Source of the DNA: an uncultured Eubacteriales bacterium | GTDB lineage: Bacteria > Bacillota > Clostridia > Oscillospirales > Oscillospiraceae | Direction of reading: 5' to 3' | Assembly (NCBI GenBank): GCA_900316745.1 | Contig: ONEB01000012.1 | Location: 1 to 64,000, forward strand | DNA length: 64,000 nucleotides | Part shown: piece after piece, positions 17,551-23,638 of the stretch | How positions within the stretch are numbered: the stretch's first letter is position 1 | Layout of the letters: each line of letters begins with the position of its first letter | The notes under the pieces: generated by a model | What the model was told of the DNA's origin: nothing | The model's input: only the letters and a program-made list of their open reading frames with translations | Database searches by the model: none | Translations under genes and position numbers: made by a program

Positions 17551-17868
17551 ATCAATCACAGGGTAATTGCAGGGTAGGAAACACGCGGAATAATTGTCAA
17601 TTATTCTTGGCAGATTGTTGTCTTAGATTGATAGGATGAAGGCTTGCTGGCACAGTAACAAAAACAGAAGTCTCTATAATCTGTGACAAATACATGCCAA
17701 AAGGTTTTAACAGTTATAGCCTGGCAGGCTGAAAATTGCTCGGTTAATTGGTTAATTAGTATGCTTGGAGGGTGTGACAGTCGCCGTTCCACACGTATTC
17801 CACATGCTGGATTCTGAGCCTCTATTTCCAAGCAAAAGAAAAAACCTTGAAGTTGTGAAAACTTCAAG
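17551..17868. other. Intergenic region with AT-rich palindrome
   Basis: No gene is visible. GAATAATTG (17588-17596) and CAATTATTC (17598-17606) form a perfect 9-bp palindrome around one base, perhaps the operon's terminator or an operator. The right end contains the hairpin at 17842-17870, which before integration would have ended the tRNA-Pro transcript. Confidence 0.4.
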
Positions 17869-17870
17869 GT
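17842..17870 (-). terminator. Displaced tRNA-Pro terminator left of the integrated element
   Basis: AACCTTGAAGTT pairs perfectly with AACTTCAAGGTT around a 5-base loop, with A/T tracts on both sides. It corresponds in position and sequence to the hairpin at 23529-23553 beyond the other attachment repeat, so it was the original terminator of the tRNA-Pro gene before the element inserted. Confidence 0.7.
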
Positions 17871-17924
17871 TTTTTACTGGTCCGAGTGAGAAGATTCGAA
17901 CTTCCGGCCTCTTGAACCCCATTC
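17869..17924. repeat. Attachment repeat, left end (attL side)
   Basis: This 56-bp repeat contains the 3' 48 bases of a tRNA-Pro gene (minus strand), including the T-arm and acceptor 3' strand, cut off inside the anticodon stem. It is identical to 23555-23610. The tRNA piece here has no 5' half and is not functional. Confidence 0.9.
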
Positions 17925-17968
17925 ATATTCAATACGTTTTACATTTTTGAAAATTGTTTGAAAAAGTA

Positions 17969-17997
17969 TTGATAAATCAATGGTTTTGTGATATTAT
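17969..17997 (+). promoter_or_regulatory. Integrase promoter
   Basis: TTGATA (17969-17974) and TATTAT (17992-17997) have 17-base spacing and would start transcription near 18004. The leader contains three arm-type repeats, so integrase binding there could repress its own synthesis (inference). Confidence 0.65.
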
Positions 17998-18017
17998 CGT
18001 AATGTAAAGTTTTGGAG

Positions 18018-18060
18018 GGTAAACAACTTTTGAATAACTTTGTTTACCTTTTTGTTTACC
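18018..18060. promoter_or_regulatory. Arm-type integrase-binding repeats, left end
   Basis: The 9-mer TTGTTTACC occurs at 18040-18048 and 18052-18060, and inverted (GGTAAACAA) at 18018-18026. The same 9-mer occurs twice at 23470-23491 near the other end. Paired short direct repeats inside both ends of an integrated element are the usual binding sites of a tyrosine integrase arm-binding domain. Confidence 0.65.
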
Positions 18061-18088
18061 TTTTGCGATTGTATGGAGGTTTGAACTC

Positions 18089-19303
18089 ATGGCAAGTATT
18101 ACGCCGAAAACAGACAAGCAGGGCAATGTCATTAGCTATAAAATTCTTGTTTGCGTCGGACGCGACGAACACTATAAACAGATTTGGCGCACAAAGACGA
18201 TTAAGCGCCCTGAGGGCTTGACCCCGGCAAAAGAGCGCAAGGAAGTTGAACGCCTTGCCGACGCATGGGAGCAGGAACAGAAAGCCAATTATGAAAAGAG
18301 CAGAGACAAGCGAGACAAGACAAAAATCGCGTTTGCCGAGTTTGTCCGTTCCCATTGGTGGGCAGATCATGTCATGGACGGCTCACACACTCCTAGCAGC
18401 ATTTCATTCTACAAAAATATGTCCGATGATATTGTGTCCTATTTTGGAGAGAAAAAGAAGCTGAATGCAATCGACGCCGAGGCAGTAAAGCGATATATCA
18501 AGTATCTAAACACGGAAGCAACGACGCGCGGCGGCAAGCCTCTGAGCGCAACGACGATCGTTCGCCACTATCAGACCTTGCGGAATATTATCAATTATGC
18601 CGTGCGTTTCGGCTATCTGAAAGAAGATCCATGTAAGTATCTTTCTATAAAGGACAAGCCCCGGCAGGACAGCAAAGAAGTTGATTTTCTTTCACCGAAA
18701 GACGCGCAGCGCTTTATGACGGCGCTTGAAACAGAACCATTGTTCTGGCGGTGCTTCATGAATGTGCTGATTACTTGCGGACTCCGGCGCGGTGAGTGTA
18801 TCGGCTTGCAATGGGGAGATATTGACGGCGAGGCGCTGACGCTGACGGTATCGCGCAATGTCACGATCGACAAGGATTCCCCCGATAAAATCCATATCGG
18901 TGAAACGAAAGGAAAAGAAAGCCGCTCCGTTCCGCTGTCAGCCCGTGTGTATGGTTTGTTGATGGCGTTCAAACGGGAACAGGACGAAAAGTACAACGGT
19001 GTTTTACTCCCGAATGCGTATATCTTTTGCCGTGTAGATAATCCATACAAGCCCCAATATCCAACAGAGCCGACAAGGTGGCAATCCAAATTTGTGAAGC
19101 GTCACAAGCTGCCAAATGTCAGCCCCCATGATTTGCGGCACACGGCGGCAACGCTTGCGCTTGAAAGCGGTGCAGACCTAAAACAGGTGCAACAGCTTTT
19201 AGGGCATAAAGACCCGGCAACGACAATGAAGTTTTACGCCGGAGTTACAAAGGAAGCACAGCGCCGGACAGTTGAAGGAATAGAGAGTATTATAAACGGA
19301 TAA
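18089..19303 (+). CDS. Tyrosine recombinase (phage-type integrase)
   Basis: The 404-residue protein has the layout of Tn916/phage-type integrases. The N-terminal part (about 1-65) is arm-binding-like (NVISYKILVCVGRDEHYKQI), a SAM-like core-binding domain covers about 85-180, and the catalytic domain about 205-395. The catalytic residues are recognisable: Arg in CGLRRGECIGLQWGD, His-x-x-Arg in HDLRHTAATLALESG, the second His in LGHKDPATT and the nucleophile in MKFYAG. GGAGG lies 10 bases before the ATG. It would integrate and, with the excisionase, excise the element at the tRNA-Pro 3' part. Its own promoter and a strong terminator bracket it. Confidence 0.95.
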   Translation: MASITPKTDKQGNVISYKILVCVGRDEHYKQIWRTKTIKRPEGLTPAKERKEVERLADAWEQEQKANYEKSRDKRDKTKIAFAEFVRSHWWADHVMDGSHTPSSISFYKNMSDDIVSYFGEKKKLNAIDAEAVKRYIKYLNTEATTRGGKPLSATTIVRHYQTLRNIINYAVRFGYLKEDPCKYLSIKDKPRQDSKEVDFLSPKDAQRFMTALETEPLFWRCFMNVLITCGLRRGECIGLQWGDIDGEALTLTVSRNVTIDKDSPDKIHIGETKGKESRSVPLSARVYGLLMAFKREQDEKYNGVLLPNAYIFCRVDNPYKPQYPTEPTRWQSKFVKRHKLPNVSPHDLRHTAATLALESGADLKQVQQLLGHKDPATTMKFYAGVTKEAQRRTVEGIESIING

Positions 19304-19319
19304 CCTATATAAAGATGAT

Positions 19320-19349
19320 GGAGCGGCTACGATAGCCGCTCCAATTTTT
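19320..19349 (+). terminator. Terminator after integrase
   Basis: GGAGCGGCTA pairs perfectly with TAGCCGCTCC around a 3-base loop (19320-19342) and is followed by AATTTTTA. Confidence 0.85.
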
Positions 19350-19532
19350 ATGAACAATTTGTAAATTATTAATCACATCTCTCACACGCTCTTACATGCA
19401 CTCACTTCGGCACACAAACGCACATATTCAACACACGATATGAACTTGCACGGATTTACAACATATAGTACAATAAAAGCGCGGTACCGAAATAATAAAA
19501 CGCAAATTGATAATACGGAAGGTGGTAACAAG

Positions 19533-19718
19533 ATGCCTACATTCAAGACCATTCGACAGACTGCACGACATACTGGTTTGCCGGAACACCATTTGCGGCA
19601 GCTCGTGAAGCGTGGCGAGTGCCCCGGCTTTTATGCCGGAACGAGGTTTTATATTAACGTGGACGCGCTGACAGAACAGCTTGAACGAGTAAGCCGCTCG
19701 AACATGGAGGCGATTTGA
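19533..19718 (+). CDS. Excisionase-like helix-turn-helix protein
   Basis: The 61-residue protein starts MPTFKTIRQTARHTG with GGAAGGTGG upstream. It matches the MerR-like winged-helix DNA-binding fold of Xis/excisionase proteins: a first helix RQTARHTGLPEHHLRQLV, then a wing with GTRFYINVDAL and a final helix. Such proteins bind near attachment sites and direct the integrase towards excision; some act as repressors or replication accessory factors. Its TGA overlaps the ATG of the ATPase gene, so both are co-translated, which may point to a role in replication control too. Confidence 0.85.
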   Translation: MPTFKTIRQTARHTGLPEHHLRQLVKRGECPGFYAGTRFYINVDALTEQLERVSRSNMEAI

Positions 19719-20854
19719 TGCATTCCCTTGAACGACAGGGAGAGGGAGAGCAGGAAAAAGCATTTGAAGCTAGAGCGGCTGAGCAGTTTGGTGATAACGA
19801 AACGGTTTTCGTCTGGTATCCATATATCCCCGTTGGCGATTATACCGTTTTAATGGCTGACGGCGGCACAGGTAAAACAATCCTCTGTTGCGGAATTGCT
19901 GCCGCGATCAGCACAGGCGCAAAGCTGCCGGGGGATTGCAAGAGCAGAGCCGCCGAGCCTGTTTTGATTGTCAGCGCCGAGGACACCGGGGAACTGCTGA
20001 AACAGCGGCTTGATGAATCGGGCGCGGATTTGTCAAAGGTATTCATTCTTGACTGTCAAGCGAGCGAGGGATTGAACTTCACGGACGGTTATGATGCTTT
20101 TGTGGCGCTCATTCGTCGCTATGCTCCGGCGCTTGTGATTATTGACCCGTGGCATGCTTTTCTAGGCGCAGGCGTGGACATTAACCGTGTGAACGCTGTC
20201 CGTCCAGTCTTTCAAAGGCTTGCGAACATGGCGAAAGTCTGCAAATGCGGTTTGATTCTTGTCAGCCACGTTAACAAGCGAGCGCAGGGAGAGAACGCCA
20301 ACAACGCCGCCACAGGCAGCACCGATTTTATCAACGCTGCGCGTTCTGCAATGCGCGTGATTTTCAATGATGAACCGGGAGCGACAAGCAGCCGAATTGT
20401 GGTACACACGAAAAGCAACTACGCCGCGCCGGGAAAGTCCGTCAAGTATCAGATCACAGGCAACGGCGGCTTATTCTGGGATGGATTCAGCGAGATCACA
20501 CGAAAGACGCTAGAGGATGCCGCACGTTGGAGAAAAACAACGTATGAAGCCCTGCAAAGGCAGGACGCGCAGGACGTCACGAACCGCGCCTTGATTGCTG
20601 CTGTTTGTGAGTATGGCGTACCCGGTCAAACTGTTAATGTCTCATATGATCAAATGAAAGCCGATCACGGATCAGACATTTTTGATTGTATGCAGCCAAA
20701 ACGGGCGCTTGATGCAGTCTCTGGTGAATTGCGTGCTATTGGCTATTACGTCCAGACAGGGAAAACCGTCAGACATAACGGACGCACGAAAAACGGTTTT
20801 TCCGTACTGAAACAAGAGCGGCTGTCAGACGTTTTGGAGGGATTGCCCGAATGA
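19718..20854 (+). CDS. RepA-like AAA/RecA-fold ATPase
   Basis: The 378-residue protein carries Walker A ADGGTGKT (residues 47-54), Walker B ALVIIDPWHAF near 140, and a sensor-like stretch GLILVSHVNKRAQG near 180, as in AAA_25/RSF1010 RepA-type helicases. The C-terminal 100 residues look like a winged-helix region (VCEYGVPGQTVNVSYDQM). RepA-type hexameric ATPases unwind origins of small plasmids and many integrated elements. In this element it is probably the replication helicase or initiator, working with the repeats just downstream. The stop overlaps an ATG that opens only eleven codons. Confidence 0.85.
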   Translation: MHSLERQGEGEQEKAFEARAAEQFGDNETVFVWYPYIPVGDYTVLMADGGTGKTILCCGIAAAISTGAKLPGDCKSRAAEPVLIVSAEDTGELLKQRLDESGADLSKVFILDCQASEGLNFTDGYDAFVALIRRYAPALVIIDPWHAFLGAGVDINRVNAVRPVFQRLANMAKVCKCGLILVSHVNKRAQGENANNAATGSTDFINAARSAMRVIFNDEPGATSSRIVVHTKSNYAAPGKSVKYQITGNGGLFWDGFSEITRKTLEDAARWRKTTYEALQRQDAQDVTNRALIAAVCEYGVPGQTVNVSYDQMKADHGSDIFDCMQPKRALDAVSGELRAIGYYVQTGKTVRHNGRTKNGFSVLKQERLSDVLEGLPE

Positions 20855-20875
20855 CGGAAAGCCGCTCCAATACGA

Positions 20876-20992
20876 AAAATCTATAATTTCTGTTAGGATA
20901 TGTTTTTATAGATTTTATTGATTTCTTCTTTGAAAATGCGGAATGTCTATAAAATCTATAATTCCTACGGCTAGCAAAAATCATAGATTTGG
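20876..20992. repeat. Iteron-like cluster after the ATPase gene
   Basis: Variants of ATCTATAA or its complement occur five times in 117 bases: AAAATCTATAATTTC (20876-20890), TTTTTATAGATTTTA (20903-20917), GTCTATAAAATCTATAATTCC (20945-20965, two copies) and AATCATAGATTTGG (20979-20992). The AT-rich, repeated layout next to a RepA-like gene suggests a replication origin or multi-site operator; the intervening 146-base gap has no gene. Confidence 0.5.
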
Positions 20993-21000
20993 AGGGATTA

Positions 21001-21315
21001 ATGAAAAACAAAATCTGTTGTGTGCTCGCCCTGATAATGTTTTTATCATTGCTTGCAGGATGCAGCCAACGCGAAATACTACTACTAGATAACAATAACT
21101 TGAAGATTACGCGCACAGGCGCAATAACGACTATTACAGACAAAAACAGCGGCGAGGTGTACACGCTCCATAGCGTCCACAAACGCCATACAGAGGCGAA
21201 AACAGAGCCATATACAGCTATATCAACATCGACAATCAAAATTATCATCATCCCCGGCGGCTTTCAAGTTGTGTCTGGGAATACATCTTACACATTCACG
21301 AAACGGAGGTTTTGA
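21001..21315 (+). CDS. Small lipoprotein of the integrated element
   Basis: The 104-residue product starts MKNKICCVLALIMFLSLLAG with GGAGGG just upstream. The lipobox LLAGC places the lipidated cysteine at residue 21. The short mature part contains a beta-rich segment (LKITRTGAITTITD) and an Ile-rich strand (STIKIIIIPGGFQVV). Surface lipoproteins on phages and satellites often modify host susceptibility to superinfection, but nothing here proves that. The stop codon abuts the next ATG. Confidence 0.65.
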   Translation: MKNKICCVLALIMFLSLLAGCSQREILLLDNNNLKITRTGAITTITDKNSGEVYTLHSVHKRHTEAKTEPYTAISTSTIKIIIIPGGFQVVSGNTSYTFTKRRF

Positions 21316-21633
21316 ATGAACAGCGCATTTATTAGGAGCCATTGCGACGATAACGGTGAGCGCAGCTTTTCGATTCACTTCATTGTTGACGCAATCGGTC
21401 ACGATGAAGATGCCCCGGCGCTTTGTACTTTTTCATCGCTTGAGACGGCAGCTATGTTATGCAGATACATCAATGGCGGCAACATGGACAAGCAGGAGCG
21501 TGATTCTGTTTCGGTCGCGCTTATGGGTGAAGATAGAGCATACCGAAAGAAACGAAAGAAAGCAGTTGCAAAAGTAGGCAAAACCGCCACGAATGGAGGT
21601 GGTAACTGTGCCGACAAGTCCGGTCTATGCTGA
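21316..21633 (+). CDS. Small protein of the integrated element, unknown function
   Basis: The 105-residue product begins MNSAFIRSHCDDNGERSFSI, with GGAGG in the end of the preceding gene. The first 70 residues look folded (FIVDAIGHDEDAPALCTF, TAAMLCRYINGG); the tail is strongly basic (YRKKRKKAVAKVGK). It overlaps the next gene by 26 bases. No family recognised. Confidence 0.55.
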   Translation: MNSAFIRSHCDDNGERSFSIHFIVDAIGHDEDAPALCTFSSLETAAMLCRYINGGNMDKQERDSVSVALMGEDRAYRKKRKKAVAKVGKTATNGGGNCADKSGLC

Positions 21634-21982
21634 TGAAATTATCTTAGCCGCTCTTTTACAAGGTGGATCAATCAGAAAAGCAGCCGCCCTTGTTCCTTGC
21701 GGTGTCACAACCATTCGGGAGCGTTTGCGCAATGATGATTTTCGTCGGCAGTATGACGCGCTGAAAGGTGAACTGCTGCAAGAGGCGGCAGGGGAGCTTT
21801 CCGCAAAAATGGGAGCGGCTGTCGAGCGCTTGTCAGAGATCATGGATAATGCGGATAACTCCGCTGCTGTCCGTGTTCAGGCGGCTGGTGAACTACTCCG
21901 GCAGGGCTTGAAATATGTAGCAGTAGCAGAGATCGAGCGCCGTGTCACGGCCTTGGAGGCGGTGCAGGAGGGCGAACAATGA
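21608..21982 (+). CDS. Terminase-small-subunit-like helix-turn-helix protein
   Basis: The GTG start at 21608 has GGAGGT eight bases upstream, giving 124 residues; an in-frame ATG at 21593 would overlap that site. The N-terminal HTH (EIILAALLQGGSIRKAAAL, then TTIRERLRNDDFRRQY) is followed by long amphipathic helices (ELLQEAAGELSAKM, VRVQAAGELLRQGLKYV) and a C-terminal coiled coil RRVTALEA. This order is that of phage small terminase-type DNA-binding proteins, which choose DNA for packaging. In satellites such a subunit redirects a helper phage's terminase. An unrelated HTH role remains possible, since no large terminase is present. Confidence 0.6.
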   Translation: MPTSPVYADEIILAALLQGGSIRKAAALVPCGVTTIRERLRNDDFRRQYDALKGELLQEAAGELSAKMGAAVERLSEIMDNADNSAAVRVQAAGELLRQGLKYVAVAEIERRVTALEAVQEGEQ

Positions 21983-22230
21983 AAAGTGTATTGTCACGTC
22001 TGACGGCTTTGGAAAGCAAATATTTGCAAGAATCCCTAGTTGTGCTTGGCGAGGATCAAAACGGTGCTGTGTCAAGAATGACAGTACAGGCATTGATTGA
22101 TGGTGGATTCAGTTTCGTCAAAGTAATAAGGGGAAGCAGTTTGTCAGATTTGGACCTCTTGCTATCGGCATTTCATGCGCGAGTGTTACAGGATACGGAG
22201 AAAGGCGGCATTGAATGCAAGAACAAATAA
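21979..22230 (+). CDS. Small coiled-coil protein of the integrated element
   Basis: The 83-residue product starts MKSVLSRLTALESKY, overlapping the preceding gene by ATGA. The first 15 residues form a short coiled coil whose RLTALES motif is like the end of the preceding protein (RRVTALEA) and the start of the one at 22369 (KRVARLEA). The remainder (GAVSRMTVQALIDGGFSFVK) is small and mixed. Function unknown; hetero-oligomers through the shared motif are conceivable. Confidence 0.55.
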   Translation: MKSVLSRLTALESKYLQESLVVLGEDQNGAVSRMTVQALIDGGFSFVKVIRGSSLSDLDLLLSAFHARVLQDTEKGGIECKNK

Positions 22231-22382
22231 TCTATGACTGTATTGTTTCCGATAGACGAAAGAAGCGGATTTCAGTTGTATATGAACCGTACCCATCAAA
22301 AGAAGGTCAGCTTGAATGCGAACGCCTATGGAAACAGCTATGCGATTCTTCACGCAGGAGGTTGAGACGTGAGAAGCCTTGA
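22215..22382 (+). CDS. Very short gene of the integrated element
   Basis: This 55-codon frame starts MQEQIIYDCIVSDRRKKRI inside the end of the preceding gene and ends 14 bases inside the next. It is basic (C-terminus SRRRLRREKP). The overlap on both sides, the absence of other frames in the interval and the codon use support it as a real gene. No family recognised. Confidence 0.45.
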   Translation: MQEQIIYDCIVSDRRKKRISVVYEPYPSKEGQLECERLWKQLCDSSRRRLRREKP

Positions 22383-22653
22383 CAAGCGGGTTGCACGTTT
22401 GGAAGCGGCACGGCCACGGCTATTTGCCGATGTGCTTTCGCTGATAGCCCGTCATGCGTATTACGACGAAATAACGCCACAAGATCGAGCCCGATATTGT
22501 CAGTTTATCGGAGTCGAACAGAGAGCATTTGAAGGTGTAAACCAAATGGTTTTAGGTGATCAGCACATTATGCTTACAAAGTTTGACGCGCCATCGAGCG
22601 CGGAGCTTGAAGCAATCATCAACGAAGTGCAACATGAAGTTTTTAATAAATAA
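22369..22653 (+). CDS. Small acidic protein with N-terminal coiled coil
   Basis: The 94-residue product starts at GTG with AGGAGG eight bases upstream. It begins MRSLDKRVARLEAARPR and continues with helices (ADVLSLIARHAYYDEI, RARYCQFIGVEQRAFEGV) and an acidic C-terminus (SSAELEAIINEVQHEV). The N-terminal motif is shared with the two preceding proteins. Function unknown. Confidence 0.55.
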   Translation: MRSLDKRVARLEAARPRLFADVLSLIARHAYYDEITPQDRARYCQFIGVEQRAFEGVNQMVLGDQHIMLTKFDAPSSAELEAIINEVQHEVFNK

Positions 22654-22673
22654 TCACACGAAAGGACAAATAT

Positions 22674-23345
22674 ATGGATAGAACACGCATTTATTTTGAA
22701 CACGCCCGCGATTATCGGGCAAAACTTCGCGGCATTTGGGAAGAATACGGCAAAGCCGAGAAAGAGCTAGAGCCGTACAAGGGCAGCGCCGGATATAATA
22801 ACGATGTTGCCGAGGCAGCAAAAACCCGTGACGCCGCCATTACAAGCTTGCAAAATGAGTATAGAGAAAAATTCGATGTTGTTCTAAAGGGAATGCGGCA
22901 AAGCGCCACGAGTCGCCCGATGACTGCACCCACGCCCGAACAGCTTGCGCTGCTACAGGCGCTCAAAATGCGCGAAACAATCAGCCGAGATGAGCTTGAA
23001 CAGGCTGGGCGCACACTCAAAGACAGCTCCGTTTGTCTGAGTGTTCTGGATGAAATTGCAATGCGGCAGGGTTATGCCGGTCTCCGTTTTGGTGGGGAAT
23101 CCACCGCCGCGATTCTGGCACATGTCGACGAGCTTACCGCCTCTGCAAAAAAGCTTTGTGCCCTAAACAAGCCTGACAGTCGGCGCGAAATGGTTGCCCG
23201 AAAATCCATTTACAGCGTCGACCGCGATGATAATGCAATGTATAGTTTCAGCGTCGACCGCGATATTGACAGCATGACCGATTGCATGCGCCTTTTCGGC
23301 AGCGTGGGCGACATTGAAAGCTTTGCGGAAGCCGTAAACGAATAA
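22674..23345 (+). CDS. Helical protein of the integrated element, unknown function
   Basis: The 223-residue protein is preceded by GAAAGGAC. Residues 1-80 are a long charged helix pair (RAKLRGIWEEYGKAEKELEP, then RDAAITSLQNEYREKFDVVL). The centre is helical (EQLALLQALKMRETISRDEL), and the C-terminal part contains two similar segments, IYSVDRDDNAM and SFSVDRDIDSM. No signal, membrane helix or catalytic motif is seen. The size and composition recall scaffold or structural-accessory proteins of phages and satellites, but I cannot assign it. It is the last gene of the element and is followed by a hairpin. Confidence 0.6.
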   Translation: MDRTRIYFEHARDYRAKLRGIWEEYGKAEKELEPYKGSAGYNNDVAEAAKTRDAAITSLQNEYREKFDVVLKGMRQSATSRPMTAPTPEQLALLQALKMRETISRDELEQAGRTLKDSSVCLSVLDEIAMRQGYAGLRFGGESTAAILAHVDELTASAKKLCALNKPDSRREMVARKSIYSVDRDDNAMYSFSVDRDIDSMTDCMRLFGSVGDIESFAEAVNE

Positions 23346-23378
23346 TACTCTTTAGCCATATCCTTTCAAAAACGGGAA

Positions 23379-23410
23379 GTCCGTCCGGGAAACCGGGCGG
23401 GCTTTCTGTT
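23379..23410 (+). terminator. Terminator at end of element operon
   Basis: GTCCGTCCGG pairs with CCGGGCGGGC (two G-U pairs in RNA) around GAAA, followed by TTTCTGTT. Confidence 0.65.
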
Positions 23411-23469
23411 ATACAAAAAATGCCGCACGGAATACTCCGAGCGGCTAAAATAATACCCAAATTACGAAT

Positions 23470-23491
23470 TTGTTTACCTTTTTTGTTTACC
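23470..23491. promoter_or_regulatory. Arm-type integrase-binding repeats, right end
   Basis: TTGTTTACC occurs at 23470-23478 and 23483-23491, the same 9-mer as in the integrase leader. They lie 64-85 bases inside the right attachment repeat, a usual distance for arm sites. Confidence 0.65.
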
Positions 23492-23528
23492 CTTTAGCTT
23501 TTTGAGCGAAATAAGAGAAAAGAAAAAA

Positions 23529-23560
23529 GCCTTGAAACCGTTGAATTTCAAGGCTTTTTT
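23529..23560 (-). terminator. Element-supplied terminator of tRNA-Pro
   Basis: GCCTTGAAA and TTTCAAGGC form a 9-bp stem with T-rich sequence on both sides; in the minus direction it ends the tRNA-Pro transcript. It differs from the original at 17842-17870 but has the same design, so the element carries a replacement for the tRNA end plus its terminator. Confidence 0.7.
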
Positions 23561-23610
23561 ACTGGTCCGAGTGAGAAGATTCGAACTTCCGGCCTCTTGA
23601 ACCCCATTCA
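23555..23610. repeat. Attachment repeat, right end (attR side)
   Basis: Identical over 56 bp to 17869-17924. Here it completes an intact tRNA-Pro, so integration at this target does not destroy the tRNA. Confidence 0.9.
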
Positions 23611-23638
23611 AGCACGCTACCAACTGCGCTACACCCGG
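23563..23638 (-). tRNA. tRNA-Pro(GGG)
   Basis: The 76-base gene has acceptor CCGGGTG pairing with CACTCGG (one G-U), discriminator A and an encoded CCA. The D-arm is GCGCAGTTGGTAGCGTGC, the anticodon stem CTTGA/TCAAG has loop ATGGGGT giving anticodon GGG, and the T-loop is TTCGAAT. A C at position 1 is typical for tRNA-Pro. The 3' two-thirds overlaps the element's attachment repeat. Confidence 0.95.

Follow-up and report, generated by a model that had tools for sequence, protein, structure and literature searches.

A compact element in a tRNA-Pro gene of an uncultured Oscillospiraceae bacterium as a probable PICI-like phage satellite

How does a 5.7-kb element that combines an integrase with a small terminase subunit, and that apparently brings no genes for a particle of its own, travel from cell to cell? 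The question arises from a unit in a tRNA-Pro(GGG) gene of an uncultured Eubacteriales bacterium of the family Oscillospiraceae, which lies in the first 64,000 nucleotides of contig ONEB01000012.1 (assembly GCA_900316745.1), the stretch of DNA that was analysed here and is called the window below. We consider it probable that this unit is a compact phage satellite resembling the phage-inducible chromosomal islands (PICIs), which would excise, replicate and have its small terminase subunit (TerS) mark its DNA for the motor of a helper, with two small proteins, o7 and o9, acting at the joint between TerS and the large terminase subunit (TerL). It would make no virus particle itself and would offer its DNA to the packaging motor of another phage.

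The small terminase subunit and the related elements

The unit (17870-23610) is bounded by exact copies of a 56-bp direct repeat, whose starts lie 5,685 bp apart; a preliminary description had put its start one base too early, at 17869, but was right about the size, the perfect repeats and a right copy that completes the tRNA gene. This gene is intact (the Rfam tRNA model gives 23566-23638), and from its overlap with the right repeat it follows that this repeat contains the 3' 48 bases of the tRNA and that the element occupies the 3' side of the gene. Since 56 exact bases end within a tRNA gene and the same layout is present in 11 related elements, chance is not a sensible alternative. The GC content of the element is 0.476, versus 0.555 for the window. 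Hairpin terminators at both junctions read out of the tRNA gene, and since their sequences differ, the element seems to have come with a tRNA terminator of its own, which would leave the tRNA gene with a substitute at integration.

The assignment of TerS appears firmer by the profile of its family and the gene context of its relatives than by the window protein alone, which matches a terminase small subunit family weakly (phrog_2538, E 0.0016) and has as best PDB profile matches two small terminase subunits, again weak (E 0.01 and 0.048). The same phrog_2538 is matched by 11 of 13 aligned family members (best 2.8e-8), and a profile built with the window protein and its relative in locus L075 excluded picks only the window TerS among 1,132 open reading frames (ORFs) of the window (E 4.8e-36). 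One TerS homologue overlaps the start of TerL in record MT836267, and in bajarodcaudo virus 2, the circular record (30.7 kb) of a tailed phage, a single gene separates another homologue from the large terminase annotated downstream of it. The window TerS matches 27 records of the phage collection, 24 of them with names that begin with Streptococcus; among the matches listed (best 20 of 27) there are 18 Streptococcus records, all of them satellite phages of the Javan series, with 31-34% identity over 88-93% of the length of TerS.

In the bacterial order of the host, the TerS profile found 27 of 394 genomes at E 0.001, of which 19, the own genome included, matched at 4e-20 or better; across the phylum it found 7 of 378 genomes at E 1e-10, again including the own one. 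We read 21 TerS loci, namely 19 from the order-level search, L075 from a search with RepA, and L001. A tRNA-overlapping direct repeat of at least 14 bp encloses TerS in 12 of them, with spans of 5.27-9.9 kb and seven kinds of tRNA gene: Pro (5.69 kb, the window), Ser (6.16 and 6.92 kb), Ala (5.27 kb), Arg (6.84 kb), Leu (6.69 kb), Thr (5.81, 6.30, 6.30 and 7.93 kb) and Met (9.54 and 9.9 kb). The ends of the other nine could not be fixed, several owing to contig ends. The search of related genomes that the preliminary description had proposed thus yielded 11 related elements with the same layout.

TerL lies within 40 kb of TerS in only one of 20 genomes (the 9.54-kb Met element), some contigs ending sooner and L001 having been checked by phmmer with one TerL, and 11 of the 12 repeat-bounded elements are without a TerL seen. 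HK97 capsid (PF05065) or Phage_portal (PF04860) genes were found within 40 kb of TerS in none of the 20 genomes by models that do not cover all families, the nearest being 43 kb away (genome G202). Since these two models also missed the real capsid and portal of a cluster in the host genome (see below), the absence in the relatives rests in addition on the genes listed for them, read by eye. The TerS profile and context, the Javan matches and the lack of a nearby TerL in 19 of 20 genomes support the phage-satellite-like nature proposed earlier.

Among the genes listed for the relatives, read by eye, the integrase and a helix-turn-helix (HTH) repressor-like gene commonly share one strand, and the other strand holds a small protein, an excisionase, a replication gene of varying type, TerS, small proteins with the RLxxLE motif described below and a protein of 180-220 aa. 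The composition is mosaic. L075, an element in a tRNA-Ser gene of the same genus, has nearly the same DNA from the lipoprotein gene through o7 (82.8% identity over 1,108 columns), whereas its RepA is only 30% identical and its integrase is a different one; L001, from a Ruminococcaceae bacterium genome, has a RepA with 79% identity and an origin region with 74.6% DNA identity over 1,175 columns, and less of the rest. Parts for integration, replication and packaging therefore appear to be exchanged separately. To speak of a new family, as was done before, is fair for this compact group, but it seems to be a variant of PICI-like satellites and not a new kind. A description of such a group was not found in the literature searched, to which most subscription papers did not belong, so that this is no proof of absence.

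Some other loci deserve mention. A sister group (L090, which is the 11.5-kb record MT836267, L094-L097 and L125, the 9.54-kb element in tRNA-Met) holds TerS, TerL and an o10-like protein, and none of ten proteins scanned in L090 matches a capsid family; a satellite with a whole terminase but without capsid would be unusual. A further 5.7-kb element in a tRNA-Thr gene of a same-genus genome (L078, 517-6272) carries integrase and excisionase genes, and a TerS of this family was not found in it. Two of the tRNA-Thr elements contain what looks by eye like a RelB/RelE-like toxin-antitoxin pair (L072, 13417-13948; L073, 1336-1867).

Putative parts for replication and excision, and the remaining genes

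Directly behind repA, an 8-bp motif occurs six times around a conserved spacer, with its copies oriented forward, reverse, reverse, forward, forward, reverse. Five elements (window, L001, L062, L063 and L064) have this layout in common, while the motif itself differs, being ATCTATAA in the window and L001, variants of ATCTATAA in L062, GTTTATGA in L063 and GTACATGA in L064. The sites, which were picked by eye from the alignment, agree in 6.9 of 8 bases within an element versus 5.3 between elements, a difference that none of 20,000 shuffles reached. Concerted change of this kind is characteristic of an origin whose sites evolve along with the protein that binds them, and we infer that the array is the replication origin, at which RepA would unwind or initiate so that a circle or concatemer is multiplied. 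The spacer pattern gave no new member among 400 genomes: its four exact matches are source elements (window, L062, L063 and L064), two one-mismatch matches have neither RepA nor iterons, and 6 genomes were matched versus 4 with a reversed-pattern control. The case for an origin is thus the concert of the sites by itself. No relative was found in IMG/VR with RepA, the TerS of L075 or alignment A4 as query. The own genome holds a second RepA-like ATPase (29% identical; contig C21, 209323-210033; L003/L076); the stretch read around it showed no further genes of an element.

Just inside each end of the element a 14-bp repeat is doubled, and these are the only four sites in the window at up to two mismatches. 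Direct words of 10 to 31 bases are common to the inner flanks of both ends in all 11 elements tested (the 12 with resolved ends except L071), with a shuffle p of at most 0.005 in eight elements and 0.02-0.05 in three. The doubled repeats and shared words may well be the arm sites of a tyrosine integrase, and integrase and excisionase (Xis) would then excise the element at the 56-bp core by way of the arm sites on both flanks. The search for an empty site, also proposed earlier, did not succeed: in four genomes of the same genus (L078-L081) tRNA-Pro(GGG) has no partner repeat of at least 14 bp in the stretch read, but the flanks are non-syntenic with the window and L079 covers only about 1.1 kb on one side, so these are not strict empty sites. 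A further stretch that matches part of the tRNA-Pro attachment core (97% over 61 bases) lies elsewhere in the own genome (L077, 9795-9899; contig C13, 93838-93898). It is accompanied by a terminator-like hairpin of its own, no tRNA gene was found there, and it is probably a relic or marks where another element ends.

The plus-strand order is int, a terminator-like hairpin, xis, repA, a lipoprotein gene, o5, terS, o7, o8, o9 and o10 (Table 1). Integrase and RepA-like ATPase, both named in the preliminary description, have clear matches; the excisionase-like protein, like TerS, is weak when taken alone (HTH_17, PF12728, 21.8 bits, under the model cut-off of 27), and its homologues adjoin int in the relatives. 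Five small genes had been counted besides these, and five ORFs of up to 105 aa are indeed present, the 55-aa one (o8) being weakly supported and having no homologue found among the related loci compared; there is, however, a sixth ORF of 223 aa, o10. It occupies the position of the 180-220 aa protein of the relatives, for which we do not claim homology: phmmer gives a weak link to a truncated protein of L068, the phage collection gives no match at E 0.1, and PHROGs and PDB searches gave no usable match. Searches of all ten proteins with Pfam, PHROGs and NCBIfam matched no structural, lysis, TerL, portal, capsid, tail, relaxase or repressor family, and none of six minus-strand ORFs has a Pfam match at E 0.1. 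The earlier statement that structural, packaging and conjugation genes are absent therefore holds for structural genes and a relaxase but not for packaging, since TerS is a packaging gene and it is TerL that is missing.

Table 1. Features of the element and its junctions (window positions)
Feature	Position	Strand	Basis
Host-side tRNA terminator hairpin, left junction, 16-bp stem	17839..17875	-	
Left attachment repeat, partial tRNA-Pro 3' end	17870..17925	.	all 56 bp identical to 23555-23610
Doubled repeat, left, TTTGTTTACCTTTT x2; putative integrase arm sites	18039..18064	+	
Tyrosine integrase (int), 404 aa	18089..19303	+	Phage_integrase 8.1e-27; phrog_1 4.3e-70
Terminator-like hairpin after int, scored on both strands	19319..19343	.	
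Excisionase-like HTH protein (xis), 61 aa	19533..19718	+	HTH_17 2.2e-4; phrog_66 excisionase 4.8e-4
RepA-like AAA_25 ATPase (repA), 378 aa; putative initiator/helicase	19718..20854	+	AAA_25 3.7e-26
Six-iteron array, putative replication origin	20877..20990	.	sites co-vary across five elements
Small predicted lipoprotein, 104 aa	21001..21315	+	lipobox LLAGC (by eye); homologues in 5 other loci
o5, 105 aa, before terS	21316..21633	+	5e-51 to L075; weak matches in L069, L095
TerS, 124 aa, GTG start, C-terminal RVTALE	21608..21982	+	profile matches and gene context of relatives
o7, 83 aa, N-terminal RLTALE motif	21979..22230	+	
o8, 55-aa ORF, weakly supported as gene	22215..22382	+	
o9, 94 aa, N-terminal RVARLE motif	22369..22653	+	
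o10, 223 aa	22674..23345	+	same place as 180-220 aa protein of relatives
Doubled repeat, right; putative integrase arm sites	23469..23495	+	
Element-supplied tRNA-Pro terminator hairpin, 17-bp stem	23523..23560	-	
Right attachment repeat	23555..23610	.	exact 56-bp match to left copy
tRNA-Pro(GGG), intact	23563..23638	-	tRNA search and Rfam

A motif shared with the terminase and a candidate helper

In 11 elements (the twelfth, L125, was left out) we scored the motif [RKQ][LIVM]xx[LI][EQ], RLxxLE for short, within the first 16 residues. It was found there in 16 of the 48 genes that follow TerS, with at least one such gene in ten of the 11 elements, and is absent from the 160 genes flanking the elements (55 of which are below 130 aa) and from 74 other element genes. 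The Fisher p of 7e-12 for 16/48 versus 0/160 is far too optimistic, since some of the counted genes are homologous to one another and the motif was picked only once the proteins had been viewed. TerS itself ends in the motif in 16 of 18 TerS-only cases scored, versus one of six with an adjacent TerL. In L090 the motif also opens TerL, and in bajarodcaudo virus 2 a KLKKLE form opens an 80-aa protein encoded between TerS and TerL. TerS tails aligned with the starts of their partners reach a mean score of 23.4, versus about 11.6 with control segments; the p of 0.019 for the match between TerS and TerL comes from six pairs only, one of which includes a tail (L094) that was read beyond its stop. 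Binding of TerL is a common role of TerS tails, and since the tail of TerS, o7 and o9 all bear RLxxLE, we read o7 and o9 as docking at the TerS-TerL joint and propose that the motif is a shared terminase-docking helix. TerS would mark the element DNA for TerL and procapsid of the helper, as concatemers if the head is large and as single units if it is small, and o7 and o9 would probably serve there as adaptors to the helper motor or as blockers of the packaging of helper DNA.

Hints of particles come from TerS relatives in three unannotated human faecal records from Mexico in the phage collection, all marked UNVERIFIED: MT837364, MT837714 and MT836267. Two were found with the window TerS and one with the TerS of L082. 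MT837714 holds xis, TerS and an o10-like protein, with no match to phrog_2 in its 6.3 kb. The records might stem from the virus-like-particle study of PMC8361208, which, in the part available, reports the removal of about 28% bacterial reads; its description fits, and no accession match was seen in that part. In MT837364 (L082, 1921-6736), TerS and o10-like genes are followed directly by genes that resemble by eye tail chaperones and a tape measure protein; the record would then be a mixed assembly or show a satellite that sits among the late genes of a phage.

A candidate helper is encoded by the host itself. Contig C26 holds, at about 121,690-133,180 (L145, 17691-19501; L146, 1-10181), a compact short-tailed capsid cluster of about 11.5 kb. 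Its genes encode a CI-like repressor, TerL, a P22-like portal, capsid, internal virion protein, amidase and holin; the ORF of TerL is open (485 aa) and precedes that of the portal, and by eye no integrase was seen in the cluster. It could be a cluster like those of gene transfer agents (GTAs) or a domesticated prophage cluster. According to the available part of PMC12946183, FpGTA I of Faecalibacterium is a 10.5-kb operon with TerL, portal, capsid and short-tailed phage proteins. Compared by make-up and not by sequence, the two have the same kinds of genes and similar lengths (about 11.5 and 10.5 kb), but the C26 cluster has a CI-like repressor and its GTA activity is putative. Homologues of its TerL, portal and capsid occur together in only one (G641) of the 19 other satellite-bearing genomes, as judged from 25 TerL neighbourhoods with the weakest TerL places excluded, so the cluster is a candidate helper here and not a general one.

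One could go further and regard the element as a satellite of GTA-like particles, with its size of 5-7 kb tuned to the small heads of a C26-type cluster and with a DNA-binding TerS that, docked through the RLxxLE helix, would make particles which otherwise take up host DNA without specificity package the satellite specifically. The gene content of the cluster (TerL, P22-like portal, capsid, internal virion protein and lysis genes, integrase not seen) would suit this, as would the 4.6-8.9 kb packaged by GTA-like particles of gut Clostridia (8.4-8.9 kb in Faecalibacterium and 4.6 kb in Ruminococcus callidus, in the same part of PMC12946183), which is near the 5.3-9.9 kb of the elements. We nevertheless regard it as quite improbable, considering the rarity of a homologous portal and capsid cluster in the other satellite-bearing genomes and a C26 TerL whose start shows no RLxxLE motif by eye.

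Alternative explanations and known satellites

Several observations weigh against a helper-dependent satellite or against parts of this reading. The evidence is sequence, and no circle, particle or strict empty site has been seen, and for the helper there is a candidate. No repressor was found among the ten proteins and six minus-strand ORFs, and the integrase gene points the same way as all the others, which sets the element apart from the relatives read. A profile of six other o10 proteins, its positional counterparts, did not recover the window o10 at E 1. The match between TerS tails and small proteins is not significantly better within than between elements (permutation p 0.08), and the motif was defined after viewing the very proteins in which it was counted, which are in part homologous.

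It is possible but not probable that o7 and o9 are interference factors which bind TerS or TerL of the helper and stop its packaging, in which case the element would still be a satellite. The protein Ppi of the Staphylococcus aureus pathogenicity islands (SaPIs) stops helper DNA packaging. The occurrence of the motif on the TerS tail and at the start of the L090 TerL would suit such a role, and satellites can limit helper replication according to the available text of PMC13376191; however, self-interference is unlikely in bajarodcaudo virus 2, where an RLxxLE-type small protein lies between TerS and TerL, and none of the ten window proteins matches a defence family in PADLOC. It is unlikely, in our view, that this is a small integrative element which spreads by conjugation or enters capsids only through unspecific packaging, TerS being a remnant or a regulator that binds DNA. 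Some members of the TerS family do match HTH models, and for Oscillospiraceae and Ruminococcaceae a prominent role of generalised transduction and of GTA-like packaging is reported (PMC12946183, available part), so that passive travel is possible, but TerS has no match at E 0.01 in the plasmid collection (72,556 records) and is retained in elements at seven kinds of tRNA gene. A conjugative or mobilisable element, the latter having been suggested earlier, was rejected, since no relaxase was matched among the ten proteins. An integrase, an excisionase-like protein and a TerS without TerL or capsid might also be what is left of a prophage; this is very improbable and was rejected as well, since the main ORFs are open, the gene order is compact, the 56-bp repeats are exact, ten relatives without TerL have a similarly reduced gene set between attachment repeats, and the origin is conserved.

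If the element is the satellite that we favour, a unit of 5-6 kb with its own TerS would come close to the minimum of genes with which a phage motor can be exploited. In gut Clostridia, DNA transfer in capsids is reported to be common by PMC12946183, in the main text of which, as available, the word satellite is absent. The concerted iterons and the shared terminase motif offer two sharp and cheap tests of how such an element is copied and packaged, and the capsid cluster of the host gives the helper candidate a name.

With Gram-positive PICIs of the SaPI type and the Javan satellites, the element shares genes for integration, excision, replication and packaging, attachment repeats (direct attL/attR repeats) and the lack of structural genes, no structural or lysis match having been obtained for the ten proteins; with repA and the iteron array it would also have a replication gene and an origin of its own. 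It differs in its size (5.7 kb versus 8.4-18.1 kb for the listed Javan records), in an integrase collinear with all genes, and in its replication gene, which encodes a RepA-type ATPase instead of the DNA primase annotated in Javan586. A divergently transcribed master repressor of the Stl type is a hallmark of Gram-positive PICIs; none was found in the window element, and one was seen by eye in several relatives. The available part of PMC13376191 gives 7-20 kb for phage satellites, and the 5,685 bp of the window element lie below this range. Since it has neither the divergent repressor nor a size of at least 7 kb, we do not classify it as a PICI, although it would function like one.

The PICMI of Vibrionaceae, as far as the accessible text of PMC10803314 describes them, are likewise about 6 kb in size (8 copies make about 49 kb), with a minimal set around integrase, AlpA (PF05930 or PF12728) and a replication gene and with no capsid-remodelling gene. 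The Xis of the element reaches the second of these AlpA models, PF12728, below its cut-off. The PICMI differ from the element by integration next to fis instead of tRNA-Pro and by a DUF3987/DUF5906 primase, which none of the ten window proteins matches at E 1, instead of an AAA_25 RepA; the element in turn encodes TerS, whereas in that main text the word terminase is absent and terS occurs once, in a context not seen. The sole PDB match of RepA at E 0.1, a weak one (E 0.019), is the RepA helicase of RSF1010 (PDB 1g8y), compared with which the element protein is about 100 aa longer and has its own six-iteron array directly downstream. Gram-negative and helper-embedded PICIs, in the available part of PMC10111431, differ from the element, which has no primase match, a TerS and another attachment site; they resemble it in an origin downstream of the replication gene, in mostly unidirectional genes and, for the helper-embedded ones, in a doubled motif on each side of attP.

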